NCBI RefSeq assembly: GCF_016756535.1
Contig: NZ_AP023247.1
Location: 4,836,501 to 4,900,500, forward strand
Direction of reading: 5' to 3'
DNA length: 64,000 bases
Origin: Mesorhizobium sp. 131-2-1
Lineage (GTDB): Bacteria > Pseudomonadota > Alphaproteobacteria > Rhizobiales > Rhizobiaceae
The notes beneath the pieces are model-generated. The model did no database searches. It saw nothing but the letters and a program-made list of their open reading frames with translations, and was not told where the DNA came from. Both the position numbers and the translations under genes were made by a program. The stretch's first letter is position 1. Each line of letters opens with the position of its first letter. Positions 14,153-45,483 of this stretch are shown here, in pieces.

Positions 14153-14500
14153 TCAGCCGGCGGAGCAGCAAGATTTGACCAGGGCCGAAAGCGATGCCGA
14201 GACATCGGCAAGCGCCACATGGTCGATCTCATAGCGCGAGCGCTGGCGGTCCGGCTCGAAGCGCACCAGGCCGGCCTCGACCAGGATCTTCAAATGCTGC
14301 GAGACGGTGGATTGGGCGAGATCGAGATGGTCGACCACCTCGCGGCAGCAGCAGGAACGGCTGGCGGCGAGATGCCTGAGTATCTCGATGCGCGCAGGAT
14401 GCGACAGAGCCGCGAACCGCGCCGCGACAGCGCGGCTGTCGAGGACGCGGCCAGGCGGCGCGTTGTTTGCGCGAGTGGGTTCAGCCAGGGATTCGGTCAT
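14153..14500 (-). CDS. ArsR-family regulator with a CCC metal-site-like motif
   Basis: The 115-residue winged-helix protein contains RFAALSHPARIEILRHL, the motif SRSCCCREVVDHL in the helix where ArsR/CadC proteins carry their CxC metal ligands, the recognition helix AQSTVSQHLKIL, and a C-terminal SCCSAG. Five cysteines in 115 residues suggest metal, metalloid or thiol/persulfide sensing. It sits 20 bp upstream of the ATM1-type exporter on the same strand, so it very likely represses that operon and itself. Ligand unknown. Confidence 0.85.
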   Translation of the reverse strand: MTESLAEPTRANNAPPGRVLDSRAVAARFAALSHPARIEILRHLAASRSCCCREVVDHLDLAQSTVSQHLKILVEAGLVRFEPDRQRSRYEIDHVALADVSASLSALVKSCCSAG

Positions 14501-14594
14501 CGTTGATCGGCGATAGACGATGAACGATGAGAGGGCAAGCTAGGCCGATGGGTAGATGGCATTGCTGAAGCGAGCGCAACGCCGAAGCTGCCAG

Positions 14595-14614
14595 TCTCCC
14601 CCTCGTGGGGGAGA
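14595..14614. repeat. Short perfect hairpin, repeat-type
   Basis: TCTCCCCC (14595-14602) and GGGGGAGA (14607-14614) form an 8-bp stem with a TCGT loop just past the 3' end of the LysM gene. There is no T-tract. The same TCTCCCCC/GGGGGAGA core recurs in the large inverted repeat at 28453-28606, so this is probably a fragment of that intergenic repeat family that may serve as a terminator. Confidence 0.5.
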
Positions 14615-14632
14615 TCAGCCAATCGCCGAACC

Positions 14633-16129
14633 CTACTGCGTCTTGGTCGGCGCCGTGGTCATCTGGTCGCCGAGCGCCTTCATGTCGGCGTCCTCGCCTT
14701 CCTTCGACTTTTGCGGGACCTTGAACACCTGGCCCGGCCAGATGCGGTCGGGATTGCTGATCTGGTCCTGGTTGGCGAGATAGATGGTGGAATAGCGCAC
14801 GCCGTGGCCATAGACGCGCCGCGAGATCCGCCACAGCGTATCGTTGCGCCGGATGATGACGGCGCTGTCGGCATGCTCGAGCTTGGGCGCCACCGTCTCG
14901 GGGGCGTCGGGCGTCGCGGCAGCCACCTTGGCCGGGGCTTCGGCGGCAGGAGCAGCAGCAGGCGCTTCGCCTGCTGTCGCGGGCGCGGCTGGCTTGGCTT
15001 CGGCGGGCTTTGCCTCTGCCGGCTTGGTCTCGGCCGGCGCCACGGCGGCGACCGACTCGCCCGGCTCGCGCTCGAACGGCACGGCGGCGCGGGCCACCAC
15101 CTTCACCCCGTCGGCATCGAGCGCATCGACATGGATGGTGTAGCTGCCGACCGGAATGTCGCGCGCCGCTTCGACCAGGAAATGGCCGTCAGGCGAGGTC
15201 TGGGCATCGCCGAGCAGGATGTCGTTGGCATAGGCGCGCACCTTGCGGCCGGGGTCGGCGGTGCCGGCGACGAAAATCTTGTTGCCGTCAATCTCGACCG
15301 CCTCGACCACGATCTTGGGCTCGCCCGCCGGTGCTGCCGGCGGGGTAGCCGGCGTGGCGGGCGCCGGTGCTGGCGCGGCTTCAACCGCGGCCGGCGCCGG
15401 TGCGGCCGGGGCCGTCGCAGCGGGCGCTTCGGCCGCCGGAGCGGCCGCCTGGTCGCCAGTGGCGGGTGCCGCGGGCTTCGCCTCGGGCGCCGGAACAGTG
15501 AGCAGTTCTGACGGCTTGCCCGGCTCCTCGACCATGGCCAGCACCTGGCCGGCTGGGCTCTGCGGGATCGAGACGACGGCGGTCTGCACCGAGGCGGTCA
15601 CGACGTCGCCGGTCGCCGAGCGCAGCGTGATGGTGTAGTCGCCGGGCTTCAGCGGATCGTCGAGGACGATGGCGAAGGCGCCGTCCGGACCGGCGATGGT
15701 CGAGCCGAGCACCGTCGTGCCGTTGAGGATCTCGACCTTGGAATTGGGCGCCGCGTTGCCGGCGACGACGATCGAGCCATTGCTTTCGACGCGCACGACA
15801 TCGAATGTCGGCGCAACCGGCCCGGCCGCGGCGGATGCTGCCGCTGGCGCGGCCGGAGCGGCAGGAGCTTCCGCCGCCGGGGCCGCAGGCGCAGCCGGGG
15901 CCGCCGCATCAGTGGCTGGCGCTGGCGCGGCCGGCAGCCGCCCCTCGGTGCCCGGCTCGGCCGGCTTGGTTTCCGCTGGCTTGGTGTCGCCCGGCTCCAG
16001 CGCCGCGACCTGTGCCGGCGGCGTGCGGTTGAGATACGGATCGAGCGCGCCCGAAACATAGGCGGTTCCCGCCGCGGCGACGGCGCCGCCCGCGGTAAAC
16101 AACAACGCCTTCAACGGATTAATTGCCAT
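14633..16129 (-). CDS. LysM-domain cell-envelope protein, Ala/Pro-rich
   Basis: The 498-residue product from the ATG at 16129 (AAGGGG upstream) begins with a membrane anchor or signal segment (ALLFTAGGAVAAAGTAYVSG). It contains long Ala/Pro-rich linkers and two Ig-like modules (for example GNAAPNSKVEILNGTTVLGS and AGTADPGRKVRAYANDIL). It ends with a LysM domain (about residues 430-485: RRNDTLWRISRRVYGHG, then PDRIWPGQVFKVP). LysM binds peptidoglycan, so the protein is probably periplasmic and wall-bound. LysM proteins with this layout are conserved in Rhizobiales without a defined role. Confidence 0.82.
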   Translation of the reverse strand: MAINPLKALLFTAGGAVAAAGTAYVSGALDPYLNRTPPAQVAALEPGDTKPAETKPAEPGTEGRLPAAPAPATDAAAPAAPAAPAAEAPAAPAAPAAASAAAGPVAPTFDVVRVESNGSIVVAGNAAPNSKVEILNGTTVLGSTIAGPDGAFAIVLDDPLKPGDYTITLRSATGDVVTASVQTAVVSIPQSPAGQVLAMVEEPGKPSELLTVPAPEAKPAAPATGDQAAAPAAEAPAATAPAAPAPAAVEAAPAPAPATPATPPAAPAGEPKIVVEAVEIDGNKIFVAGTADPGRKVRAYANDILLGDAQTSPDGHFLVEAARDIPVGSYTIHVDALDADGVKVVARAAVPFEREPGESVAAVAPAETKPAEAKPAEAKPAAPATAGEAPAAAPAAEAPAKVAAATPDAPETVAPKLEHADSAVIIRRNDTLWRISRRVYGHGVRYSTIYLANQDQISNPDRIWPGQVFKVPQKSKEGEDADMKALGDQMTTAPTKTQ

Positions 16130-41111: not shown

Positions 41112-41384
41112 TCAGAGGTGCCCGCTCAATGCCGCGACCATGTCCTTGCTGGTCGCCACGGGAACGATCTCGAACTCCACCAGGTCCGCCCATTCGACGA
41201 CCCAGCGCTGCAGAAGCGTGACGTCGTCGGCCTCCACCAGCAGGAAGCAGCGGCTCATATCGGCAGGGATCCAGCTGTGGTGGACGACAAGCTCGTCCGG
41301 CTTCAGCCGGCCGCGGTCGCGGAAGCGGCGGTAGATCTCCTTGCGGTCGCAGCCGTGAAAATCCTCGATCACGAAAAACAGCAT
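41112..41384 (-). CDS. DUF3303-type small protein
   Basis: From the ATG at 41384, preceded by GAGGATAG, the 90-residue product begins MLFFVIEDFHGCDRKEIYRR and contains VVHHSWIPADMSRCFLLVEA and LLQRWVVEWADLVEFEIVPV. This is the layout of DUF3303, a dimeric alpha/beta barrel domain of unknown function. It starts 19 bp after the ATP-grasp stop on the same strand and therefore looks like the third gene of that operon. An upstream TTG at 41396 is a less likely start. Confidence 0.75.
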   Translation of the reverse strand: MLFFVIEDFHGCDRKEIYRRFRDRGRLKPDELVVHHSWIPADMSRCFLLVEADDVTLLQRWVVEWADLVEFEIVPVATSKDMVAALSGHL

Positions 41385-41403
41385 GCCTATCCTCAATTCG
41401 GAT

Positions 41404-42867
41404 CTATCGCCCCGGCCGCTCCAGTCGGTCCAGGAACCACTGCGTCAGCCGCACCCAGACCTCGTCCTTCTCGCCGGAATCCTCCCAGCCGTGGTCGAGA
41501 TTGGGATTGTCGTTGACCTCGATGACGAAGACGCCGTCCTTGGTCTCCTTGAGGTCGACGCCGTAGAGGCCGTCGCCGATGCAGCGCGCCGCCCTCACCG
41601 CCGTCTCGACGACATGGGGCGGCGTCTCCTTCAGCGTGAAGGTCTTGATGCCGCCCTGGTCGGGCTTGCCGTTGGCCTTGTGGTTGACGATCTGCCAGTG
41701 CTTCTTGGCCATCAGATAGTGGACGGCAAACAGCGGCTGGCCGCCGAGGACGCCGACGCGCCAGTCATATTCGGTCGGGATGAATTTCTGCGCGATCAGG
41801 AGGTCGGAATCCTCCAGCCACTCCGTCGCGAGCCGCGTCAATTCCTGGAGGTTCTCGCATTTCTTGACGCCGCGCGAGAAGGAGGAATCGGGGATTTTCA
41901 GCACCAGCGGGAAGCCCAGCGTCTGCGCCGCGACTTCGAGATCCGAAGTGCCGGCGATCATCACCGTCGGCGGCACCGGCACCTTGTTGTAGGTCATCAG
42001 CTCGTTGAGATAGACCTTGTTGGTGCAGCGGATCATCGACAAAGGATCGTCGATGACGGGCATGCCTTCCTGTTGCGCCCGACGGGCGAAGCGGTAGGTG
42101 TGGTTGGAGATCGAGGTGGTCTCGCGAATGAACAGCGCGTCGTAGTTGGCGAGCTTGGCCAGGTCCTTCCTGGTGATCGGCTCGATTTCGACCCCCATCT
42201 TCTCGGCGATCCGCGCCCAGTAGCGCAGCGAGGAAATCTCGGACGGCGGCAGTTCCTCATGCGGGTCGACCAGCGTCGCGAAGGTGTAGCGCGCCGGCGT
42301 GCGGCCCTTTGTGTCGCGCCATTCGCGGTTGGTGTAGGTCTCCAGGCACTGCAGGAAGAAGGCATCCTCCTCGTCGGTCATGCGGGCGAGCGGCAGGAAG
42401 CCGATCTTGCGGATCGAGGCCCATTCGGCGCTGTCCTTGATGTGGACTTCCAGCGCCGGCGCGCGGAACCAGTCGAAGAGCAGCTTGGCGAAACGGTCCC
42501 ACACCTTGGAGGGGCCAATGCCGAAGAAGATGGCGACCTTGGCCGGGAAGACGCCGCCGAGATCCTTGCGGCATTTGTTGAGCGCAAGCTCCAGCTCGGG
42601 CAGCGCATGCTCATAGAGCTTGCGCTCCGACAGGTCGATCATGGTCTCGACCGTCGGGATCACCTTGTGGCCGCGCGAGCCGGCGAGCAGCGAGGCATAG
42701 TAGCCGCGGCTCTGGTAGCCGTAATTGTTCGAAAGGTTGATGACCTTCGGCCGCTGGCCGCGAAACAGCGAGGGATGGGCAAGATAATCACGGTTGGTGA
42801 TGATCTTGTGCGGCGTCGCCACCTGGTCGAGGTCGTTCTGCCTTCCGGTAAGGATGACCCAGGTCAT
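41404..42867 (-). CDS. RimK-like ATP-grasp ligase with N-terminal RLAN-type domain
   Basis: The 487-residue product starts at the ATG at 42867 (MTWVILTGRQNDLDQ). An N-terminal region (about 1-200, VIPTVETMIDLSERKLYEHA) precedes an ATP-grasp domain with IDDPLSMIRCTNKVYLNEL, PLVLKIPDSSFSRGV and the metal-binding end IEVNDNPNLDHGW. RimK-type enzymes ligate amino acids to a carboxylate, forming peptide or poly-glutamate tails. The gene follows the GNAT/C39 gene with only a 4-bp gap. Together they look like a peptide-synthesis and -release module; substrate unknown. Confidence 0.85.
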   Translation of the reverse strand: MTWVILTGRQNDLDQVATPHKIITNRDYLAHPSLFRGQRPKVINLSNNYGYQSRGYYASLLAGSRGHKVIPTVETMIDLSERKLYEHALPELELALNKCRKDLGGVFPAKVAIFFGIGPSKVWDRFAKLLFDWFRAPALEVHIKDSAEWASIRKIGFLPLARMTDEEDAFFLQCLETYTNREWRDTKGRTPARYTFATLVDPHEELPPSEISSLRYWARIAEKMGVEIEPITRKDLAKLANYDALFIRETTSISNHTYRFARRAQQEGMPVIDDPLSMIRCTNKVYLNELMTYNKVPVPPTVMIAGTSDLEVAAQTLGFPLVLKIPDSSFSRGVKKCENLQELTRLATEWLEDSDLLIAQKFIPTEYDWRVGVLGGQPLFAVHYLMAKKHWQIVNHKANGKPDQGGIKTFTLKETPPHVVETAVRAARCIGDGLYGVDLKETKDGVFVIEVNDNPNLDHGWEDSGEKDEVWVRLTQWFLDRLERPGR

Positions 42868-42871
42868 GTCT

Positions 42872-43969
42872 TCAGCGCTTCCCCAGAATGATGGCCGCAC
42901 GCAGTCCGTCACGGCCGAACTGCGCCATGTTCATGAAGATGCCGTAAGGCACGGGAATATTGGCCGCATCAAGGATCGTCTCCTGCCGCTCGTCCTCGAC
43001 CCAGGGATCGTGGATCAGGATATGGTCGCCGTCGTCGCCGATCGCCAGCACCCAGTGCGGAACCTTCTTGCCGAACATCAGGAAGCCGCTGATCAGCACC
43101 AGCACCAGCTTGCCTCCGGCGAGCGCGTCGCGGATGTCGTCGAGGGCGAATGGACGGTAATTCACCGGGATGCCGTAAAGTTCCGCGCGGCGGCGGAAGT
43201 CGACCTGGGCAAGCTCCATCACCCGGCGCTTGTCCTGGCTGCGCACCGACTGCAGGAACAGCGCGCCATAGAAGGAGACGAATATCTCCGCAGCGAGCCC
43301 GCTCTCATAGCCGGCCACAGCCAGGCCGAACGGCTCGCAGCCGCCGGGCCCCGACATCATGAAGACGGTGGTGGCCTCGCGCCACAGGCGGATTTCCATA
43401 ACCGGGTCGGGCACGAAGCCATGGTCGAAATTGGCCATCGCCATCATCAGGCAGCATGGGCCGCAGGTGAACTCGCAGGTCTGCGGATAGAACGGGACCA
43501 TGGTGGCGATCGGAACGTCGCCGCGCAAGGTCTTCTCGTAGCGCAGCGCGGTGGCGCCGTCCTCGTAGTAGTCCGGCTCGCGGCCAATCTTGCGGTAGCC
43601 GGCCTGCTCGTAGACGCGGATGGCGCGATGATTGTCCTCGCGCACTTCGAGGCGCAGCATCATGCGGTCGTGCTCGAAGGCCGCCTCCTCCGCGGCCGCC
43701 AGGAGCTGGCGGCCGATGCCGAGCTGGCCGAAGAAGGGACCGACGGCGATGGAATAGAGACGGGCGACGCCGCTGCCCTTGCGGAACAGCACCACGGCAT
43801 AGCCGGCGACGCGGCCATCGCTTTCGGCGACCAGCATCTCGGCGGTCTCGCGCTCGATCAGCTGGCGGAAGGAGCGGCGCGACATGCGGTCGCTTGAAAA
43901 GACGGCCTTCTCGATGGCGGCGAGGTCATCGACGTCGGACACGCGGGCCTTGCGGATCTCGGCAGGCAT
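42872..43969 (-). CDS. GNAT acetyltransferase fused to C39-like cysteine peptidase
   Basis: The 365-residue protein starts at the ATG at 43969. Residues about 1-155 form a RimI-like GNAT domain (RLYSIAVGPFFGQLGIGRQL is the acetyl-CoA loop). Residues about 165-360 form a papain-like C39 domain with an oxyanion Gln and nucleophile Cys in PQTCEFTCGPCC, the His in VPHWVLAIGDDGD and an Asp in HDPW, i.e. a full Cys-His-Asp triad. C39 peptidases cleave leader peptides. The neighbour ligase suggests a modification and cleavage system with an unidentified peptide. Confidence 0.85.
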   Translation of the reverse strand: MPAEIRKARVSDVDDLAAIEKAVFSSDRMSRRSFRQLIERETAEMLVAESDGRVAGYAVVLFRKGSGVARLYSIAVGPFFGQLGIGRQLLAAAEEAAFEHDRMMLRLEVREDNHRAIRVYEQAGYRKIGREPDYYEDGATALRYEKTLRGDVPIATMVPFYPQTCEFTCGPCCLMMAMANFDHGFVPDPVMEIRLWREATTVFMMSGPGGCEPFGLAVAGYESGLAAEIFVSFYGALFLQSVRSQDKRRVMELAQVDFRRRAELYGIPVNYRPFALDDIRDALAGGKLVLVLISGFLMFGKKVPHWVLAIGDDGDHILIHDPWVEDERQETILDAANIPVPYGIFMNMAQFGRDGLRAAIILGKR

Positions 43970-44176: not shown

Positions 44177-44968
44177 TCAACTGGCAAGGCCGGCCAGAAG
44201 TTGGCCGTAGGCGCTCTTGGCGACGGCGGCCAGGCGCTCGCGCGGCAGCGAGCCGACGACGGCGCAGCCATAGCCCTTGTCCAGCCAGTAGACGGCTTCG
44301 GGACCATCGGCCTCGGCCGTGTAGGTGCCCTTGGACTTGCCGGCCGATTCGGCGGTGACGAACAGCGAGATGCGCTCGCCGCTGGCGTCCTCGTAGAGCA
44401 GCATCGCCGCTTTGCCCTGGCCGGCCGGCAGCAACCGGCCGCCGACGAGCTGGAAGCCCTCGGCCTCCAGATCGGGCGCGACCAGCCTCAGGCCGACGCG
44501 GTTGGAGAGCCAGGTCTGCAGATGGTCCTTGTCGCTGGCCGGCACCTCGACCGCATGGCGCTTCTCGGCGGCATAGATGACGTGGGCGGCGATCGCCTGT
44601 TCGGCCAGCAGGTCCTCGCTTTCATTTCCCCTGCCGATACCATCAATGCCGGCGACATAGCCGGCAAGCCCGCCGATCACCAGCACGGCGGCGGCCGCCG
44701 CCGAAAGCCACCAGCGTGAACGCAAGGCGGATGCCCTCACCGTCGTCTCGCCAAACACGGCCTGCTTGAGGCGCGCCGGCACCGGTTCGTCGAGCACGCC
44801 GGCAAAGGCGGCGCGAAGGGCCGCCCGGTCGGCGACGAAGCGGGCGCTCCTTGCCTTCATTTCGGGATTGGCCTCGAGCCAGGCGTCATAGGCCATGCGC
44901 TCCTCGCCAGGCAGCTCGCCGTCGAGGGCCATGTGGATGTCGCGTTCGGTGAAGTCGCGCCGGGTCAT
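44177..44968 (-). CDS. Membrane anti-sigma factor
   Basis: The 263-residue protein starts by overlapping the sigma gene stop in an ATGA at 44968. It has an N-terminal cytoplasmic anti-sigma domain (TERDIHMALDGELPGEER, no HxxxCxxC zinc motif), a membrane span at about 85-105 (WWLSAAAAAVLVIGGLAGYVAG) and a periplasmic domain (about 110-260). Proximity and layout are those of RskA-type anti-sigma factors. It should hold the preceding ECF sigma factor inactive until a signal in the envelope releases it. Confidence 0.85.
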   Translation of the reverse strand: MTRRDFTERDIHMALDGELPGEERMAYDAWLEANPEMKARSARFVADRAALRAAFAGVLDEPVPARLKQAVFGETTVRASALRSRWWLSAAAAAVLVIGGLAGYVAGIDGIGRGNESEDLLAEQAIAAHVIYAAEKRHAVEVPASDKDHLQTWLSNRVGLRLVAPDLEAEGFQLVGGRLLPAGQGKAAMLLYEDASGERISLFVTAESAGKSKGTYTAEADGPEAVYWLDKGYGCAVVGSLPRERLAAVAKSAYGQLLAGLAS

Positions 44969-45483
44969 TTCTCGACGATCCTTATCGAGCGGCGGCGTGC
45001 CGTGTCGTCGAGCAGCCCGCGCAGTTCCTCGCGCCCGCGCGCGATGCGTGACATGAGCGTGCCGGCCGGCACGCCGAGGATGTTGGCCGCCTCGGCATAG
45101 GAGAAGCCTTCGATCGCCACCATGACCAGGGCCGCGCGGCGATCGGGGCTGATCGCCTGCAAGGCATCGATGATCTCGCGCGAGGCGATGCTCTCGACCT
45201 GGTCGGCGGGAGCGGCCTGCGCCTCGCCTGCCTCGAGCGGCAGCATTGCCGCCTCGCCGCGTCGGTTCACCTTGCGCATCTGGTCGATGAACAGATGATG
45301 CATGATCGTAAACAGCCACCTCCTGGGGCTTTCTCCCGTCTGCCAGTTGTCGAGCCTGACCAGAGCCCGCTCGAGGCAGTCCTGGACGAGATCGTCGGCG
45401 GAATCACGGTCGCGCAACAGCGAGCGCGCGTAGCGGCGCAAACGCGGTATTTCGCCAAGGATCGCTGCCTTCTTTTCGTCCAT
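44965..45483 (-). CDS. ECF-family RNA polymerase sigma factor
   Basis: The 172-residue product from the ATG at 45483 has region 2 (LLRDRDSADDLVQDCLERAL, NWQTGESPRRWLFTIMHHLF) and region 4 (GFSYAEAANILGVPAGTLMS, with the helix-turn-helix). A GEAQAAPADQVES linker joins them. It is followed by its anti-sigma factor. The upstream region (45484-45660) is not conserved enough for me to identify a cognate promoter. It is a separate unit from the GNAT/ATP-grasp operon but adjacent to it. Confidence 0.9.
   Translation of the reverse strand: MDEKKAAILGEIPRLRRYARSLLRDRDSADDLVQDCLERALVRLDNWQTGESPRRWLFTIMHHLFIDQMRKVNRRGEAAMLPLEAGEAQAAPADQVESIASREIIDALQAISPDRRAALVMVAIEGFSYAEAANILGVPAGTLMSRIARGREELRGLLDDTARRRSIRIVEK

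Follow-up and report, generated by a model that had tools for sequence, protein, structure and literature searches.

The three-gene locus of Mesorhizobium sp. 131-2-1

The 7.1 Mb genome of Mesorhizobium sp. 131-2-1 contains, within a stretch of 64,000 nucleotides that we refer to as the window (G000:C1:4836501-4900500), three minus-strand genes arranged head to tail. They encode a fusion of a GNAT acetyltransferase with a DUF3335 domain, a ligase that combines an RLAN domain with a RimK-like ATP-grasp domain, and a DUF3303 protein; the closest named homologues of these proteins are from Mesorhizobium. An initial annotation, made from the nucleotide sequence, had taken the three genes for a possible peptide-tagging system. 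It placed them correctly with respect to coordinates, strand and spacing, and the re-derived gaps are 4 and 19 bp.

The fusion protein (42872..43969, minus strand; 365 amino acids) was delineated by Pfam. Its RimI/Ard1-like GNAT domain (43526..43909, minus strand) exceeds the Pfam cut-off for Acetyltransf_1 (E 2e-18), and its nearest folds are enzymes of the RimI/Ard1 type that acetylate N-terminal amines. Residues 158-362 (42884..43498, minus strand) match DUF3335 (PF11814) with 250.4 bits against a gathering score of 25 (E 1.5e-74), whereas Peptidase_C39 (PF03412), the family originally named for this region, stays below its cut-off (13.7 bits versus 22). Leader-removing C39 peptidases are described, in an excerpt of a published account, as fused to an ABC transporter (PMC10318531), and a Pfam scan found no transporter domain in the fusion protein. 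The leader-removing activity first suggested for the domain was an analogy drawn from true C39 peptidases, a family that DUF3335 does not join.

The proposed intact Cys/His/Asp set, by contrast, is borne out: Gln163, Cys169, His305 and Asp321 are invariant in all 32 aligned fusion proteins, as are Gly84, Glu108, Asn113 and Tyr135 of the GNAT part. This alignment (A4) comprises the window protein, 28 of 53 named fusion loci and 3 database proteins, all picked for carrying the domain. Assignment of the papain-like fold relies on Pfam and on these residues, because the fold-comparison rows for the fusion protein hardly covered the domain.

The ligase (41404..42867, minus strand; 487 amino acids) was delineated by Pfam and fold comparison. 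Its RLAN domain (PF14401; residues 26-172, 42352..42792, minus strand) scores 129.9 bits against a gathering score of 25 (E 8e-38), and its ATP-grasp domain (residues 283-459, 41491..42021, minus strand) exceeds the Pfam cut-off for RimK (PF08443, E 1e-10). The fold-comparison rows are filled by ATP-grasp chains, the nearest being the peptide-ligating enzymes LysX, ArgX and RimK. In an alignment of the window protein with 41 of 80 named loci (A3), Lys284, Lys324, Asp438, Glu450 and Asn452 are invariant in 42 of 42 ligases, and the last three line up with the D...E.N of LysX. His390-Trp391-Gln392 is likewise invariant; the His-Trp pair is common to Thermus thermophilus LysX, but the residues beyond it differ (Gln392 and, mostly, His396), which hints that the ligase substrate is not that of LysX.

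The third gene (41112..41384, minus strand) encodes 90 amino acids, as in most listed relatives, if the ATG that yields this length is its start codon, and matches DUF3303 in Pfam above the cut-off (E 4e-27). We consider all three open reading frames (ORFs) real genes rather than chance ones, given their homologue numbers and low ratios of nonsynonymous to synonymous substitution rates (dN/dS). At least 2993 of 7998 scored candidates are related to the fusion protein at E<=1e-3, a figure that may include single-domain relatives, and 750 of 751 candidates match the DUF3303 protein. Compared with M. caraganae (L055), dN/dS ranges from 0.05 to 0.17 over five parts: 0.15 for GNAT and 0.08 for the C39-like domain, 0.12 for the first 180 residues of the ligase and 0.05 for its ATP-grasp part, and 0.17 for DUF3303.

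Linkage of the acetyltransferase and the ligase

When contigs representing one genome per species were scanned with the alignment of ligases, 584 loci were confirmed, and the named loci are the best 80 of these. At 79 of these 80, the ligase gene has a GNAT gene no more than 1.3 kb away: upstream on the same strand in 76 cases, divergent in two (L127 and L126, the latter with one gene in between), and cut by a contig end in one (L052). In the stretch examined around the ligase of L128 (Sulfuricurvum), no GNAT was found.

Two partly overlapping genome samples were surveyed as well. In the class sample (142 genomes), DUF3335 was detected in 12 genomes and RLAN in 18, with both in 10, adjacent in every one; in the two genomes with DUF3335 only (G037, G050), no GNAT accompanies the domain, and a GNAT gene is present at all 17 RLAN loci outside the window's own genome. 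In the phylum sample (299 genomes), 47 have DUF3335, 56 have RLAN and 46 have both (Fisher p 4e-43, relatedness being ignored). The two domains are at most 3 kb apart in 44 of the 46 and separate in two, so that the genes are not dispersed. The 44 close pairs comprise 27 tandem arrangements with DUF3335 first, 13 divergent ones, 3 tandem ones with RLAN first and 1 convergent one, and all 10 genomes with RLAN only have a GNAT-only partner (L046, L194, L195, L207, L208, L212-L216). Linkage retained despite such rearrangement of gene order is strong evidence of a shared function of the RLAN ligase and GNAT-DUF3335.

The conserved core is therefore GNAT plus the RLAN ligase. Of the three-gene unit first envisaged, the association of GNAT-DUF3335 with the ligase stands (46 of the 47 DUF3335 genomes have RLAN), and the inclusion of DUF3303 falls. 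A DUF3303 gene lies downstream at 14 of the 80 loci, namely 13 of the 20 titled Mesorhizobium and one metagenome-assembled genome (L052) whose ligase is 96% identical to that of the window; contig ends may hide a few further cases, and the Aminobacter DUF3303 genes were not placed. We reject it as a system component and regard it as a Mesorhizobium-type addition outside the core.

RLAN occurs in about 13% of the class sample (18/142) and 19% of the phylum sample (56/299). This patchy distribution would suit a module for detoxification or resistance, by which an amino compound from outside would be acetylated and conjugated; so would a weak resemblance of the GNAT domain to acetyltransferases acting on antibiotics. 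The scores are, however, far under the cut-offs of those families, and purifying selection together with linkage maintained through rearrangement fits metabolism or stress physiology better; we consider such a module improbable.

Some genomes combine both forms of the acetyltransferase. G196 (L190/L191) holds a GNAT-only and a GNAT-DUF3335 protein, each beside its own RLAN ligase, and both forms are also kept in G376 (L218) and G146 (L205/L206). In two records titled Acidobacteria or Sulfopaludibacter (L104, L117), the gene order around RLAN and GNAT is Hyphomonas-like, as is the clade of the tree into which they fall; this points to errors of binning.

A detachable papain-like domain and the search for a precursor

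The C39-like domain is present at 53 of the 80 loci and absent from 27, as judged within the stretch around each locus. We mapped its presence (within 3.5 kb) on a tree of 109 ligases that leaves out 13 near-identical Mesorhizobium loci, L036 and L039; the tree was made by a quick method and includes some long branches and one join that drew a warning. Parsimony gives 22 changes, or 16 counting starred branches only, against a mean of 35.6 when labels are shuffled (0 of 500 shuffles as low), so that presence is clustered on the tree; gain and loss cannot be told apart from it. At least three of the loci scored as lacking the domain (L191, L192, L205) have a DUF3335 protein elsewhere in the genome. 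Ligases 75-87% identical to that of the window stand beside GNAT-only proteins in Mesorhizobium, Nitratireductor, Chelativorans and close kin (L063, L069, L070, L072, L073, L077, L089, L112).

A tblastn search of the 27 peptidase-less loci with 8 domain queries (E<=1) revealed no clear remnant of the domain. It returned 12 matches with E of 0.17-0.94. Three of them (L069, L072, L111) fall across or right beside the end of GNAT, and the queries may include the last GNAT residues. In the fusion protein, the DUF3335 half is more constrained than the GNAT half (dN/dS, two pairs). The peptidase domain thus looks useful yet dispensable, which fits turnover or editing of the product better than obligatory maturation; trimming, part of the original proposal, is not obligatory, since many lineages have GNAT and the ligase without the peptidase.

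Two genomes of the window's genus encode additional DUF3335 paralogues (L210, 5133-6194, minus strand, and 14189-15397, plus strand; L211, 8245-9339, minus strand). At E<=1e-5, Pfam recognizes nothing in the first ~150 residues of the L210 5133-6194 and L211 proteins, and the L210 paralogues lie among genes that, by reading, resemble those for ABC transporters and binding proteins.

The leader-peptidase analogy of the initial annotation leads to a pathway for a ribosomally synthesized and post-translationally modified peptide (RiPP), in which the ligase and GNAT would modify a short ribosomal precursor and the C39-like domain would cut off its leader; the papain-like fold is indeed common to leader peptidases. 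We searched 50 loci for short ORFs (15-80 amino acids, at most 3 kb from the core genes; blastp, E 1e-3) and found none conserved across clades; the search covered nearby precursors, not distant ones. The 3113 short ORFs form ten clusters present in at least three loci, all essentially of close relatives, eight in an Azospirillum trio and two in a Rhizobiales trio (one with a single outlier, L035). These clusters look like shadow ORFs, and we reject them as precursor candidates. No third gene family (>=60 amino acids) exceeds 9 of 65 loci in one set or 9 of 44 in another. With the domain assigned to DUF3335 rather than C39 and missing from 27 of the 80 loci, a RiPP-type pathway was already disfavored and appears very improbable.

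The most frequent neighbor families are, by reading, ABC or signaling genes or reflect local synteny. One gene cluster adjoins GNAT-DUF3335 or lies one gene from it at three loci (L206, 8792-9961, plus strand; L217, 10225-11472, plus strand; L126, 8713-9846, minus strand); its L206 member, the sole copy scanned, is a DUF2817 protein according to Pfam. In the window, genes resembling those for an extracytoplasmic function (ECF) sigma factor and an anti-sigma factor, named by reading, lie directly upstream of the operon (44177-45483, minus strand). Twenty of the 80 loci, each of Mesorhizobium type, retain the ECF sigma gene upstream, and three Azospirillum loci (L113, L115, L116) have a relative of it 3' of the ligase gene. 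The pair is a possible stress regulator.

Predicted function and comparison with known systems

The nearest folds of the two core enzymes make the peptide or terminal modification originally proposed a fair reading. We favor, while holding it to be not quite probable, a peptide-conjugating module made up of two enzymes, with a hydrolase as a detachable part. The LysX/ArgX/RimK fold of the RLAN-ATP-grasp ligase, with its ATP/Mg residues intact, suggests that it would activate a carboxylate as an acyl phosphate and couple the activated group to an amino acid through the latter's amine; fold and near-obligate linkage suggest that the RimI-like GNAT would acetylate the free alpha-amine of the same molecule. 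Together they would yield an N-acetylated peptide or amino-acyl conjugate, and the fused papain-like domain, where present, may hydrolyze an amide bond of this product for recycling or control. Domain make-up, conserved residues, linkage of the genes and the peptidase's coming and going on its own are observations; the chemistry, its direction and the substrate are what we infer. Given that the surroundings show no recurrent gene for a carrier or a precursor, we lean slightly towards a small peptide rather than a carrier or protein. More tentatively, the pathway may make an N-acetylated peptide or a terminal tag by means of a RimI-like acetyltransferase, an RLAN ligase of new specificity and a plug-in papain-like hydrolase with a regulatory or recycling role.

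The main rival, which we consider rather unlikely, is modification of protein termini: GNAT would acetylate the N-terminus of a ribosomal or other protein, the ligase would add amino acids to its C-terminal carboxylate, as RimI and RimK do, and the papain-like domain would remove the tag. The folds are compatible with this, the GNAT domain is borderline for RimI (TIGR01575; 85.2 and 87.9 bits in two scans, cut-off 86.4), and no other protein of the genome matches RimK as well as the ligase does, none exceeding the RimK cut-off. Yet the ligase itself scores 86.1 bits against the curated rimK_fam (TIGR00768) cut-off of 143.4, the genome has another protein above the RimI cut-off (C1:37230-37637, 90.3 bits), and the distribution is patchy although ribosomal targets are universal. 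We retain protein-terminal tagging in the comparison because the genome has this other RimI-scoring protein and no ligase over the RimK cut-off.

This conserved enzyme pair offers a tractable route towards a new metabolite or a new modification of proteins. Records titled Mesorhizobium, Azospirillum and Pseudomonas are among those that contain the pair, and because forms with and without the peptidase domain occur naturally, the role of that domain is directly testable.

Among known enzymes, LysX/ArgX and the RimK L-glutamate and aminoadipate ligases share with the RLAN ligase the ATP-grasp fold and the ATP/Mg residues; the RLAN ligase differs in its additional N-terminal RLAN domain and in scoring under the rimK_fam and LysX cut-offs. 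NAGGN synthetase (TIGR03103) likewise unites GNAT and ATP-grasp, makes an N-acetyl dipeptide and has a dedicated M42 peptidase in its cluster, but it is a single polypeptide with a different ATP-grasp domain and belongs to another family than the RLAN pair (GNAT part 23.6 bits, cut-off 569). No NAGGN synthetase match at E<=1e-100 was found in the window's genome or, counting it, in 9 genomes of its genus. One genome, G146 (L206), has the GNAT-DUF3335 gene between the three NAGGN genes on its 5' side and the DUF2817 gene on its 3' side. Overall, RLAN occurs in 7 of 27 NAGGN genomes versus 56 of 299 in the phylum sample; without general association, we reject a link to the NAGGN osmolyte and keep the analogy alone. 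The RimB-RimK and RloABC systems, as excerpted, also pair ATP-grasp with a protease, but a retropepsin-like one, with an inactive transglutaminase added in rlo and no GNAT described in that excerpt (PMC12239564).

The idea that GNAT-DUF3335 proteins act in peptide ligation or acetylation is not new, and the system belongs to a kind that has been predicted but not proven. Iyer, Abhiman, Burroughs and Aravind reportedly described DUF3335-GNAT fusions and RLAN-ATP-grasp neighborhoods in 2009, and the Pfam entry for RLAN is said to link it to a GNAT-papain protein. The systems of Iyer et al. 2009 have the same domains, and peptide ligation or acetylation was suggested there. An excerpt of a later paper credits them with noting frequent fusions of DUF3335 to GNAT domains, which might act as peptide ligases or acetylate (PMC10318531). 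No experimental account of the GNAT/RLAN ligase pair turned up in a search of the open-licence literature, which leaves most subscription journals uncovered. Beyond Iyer et al. 2009, the counts reported here define a core of GNAT and ligase, identify the peptidase as an optional, variable module and place DUF3303 outside the system.
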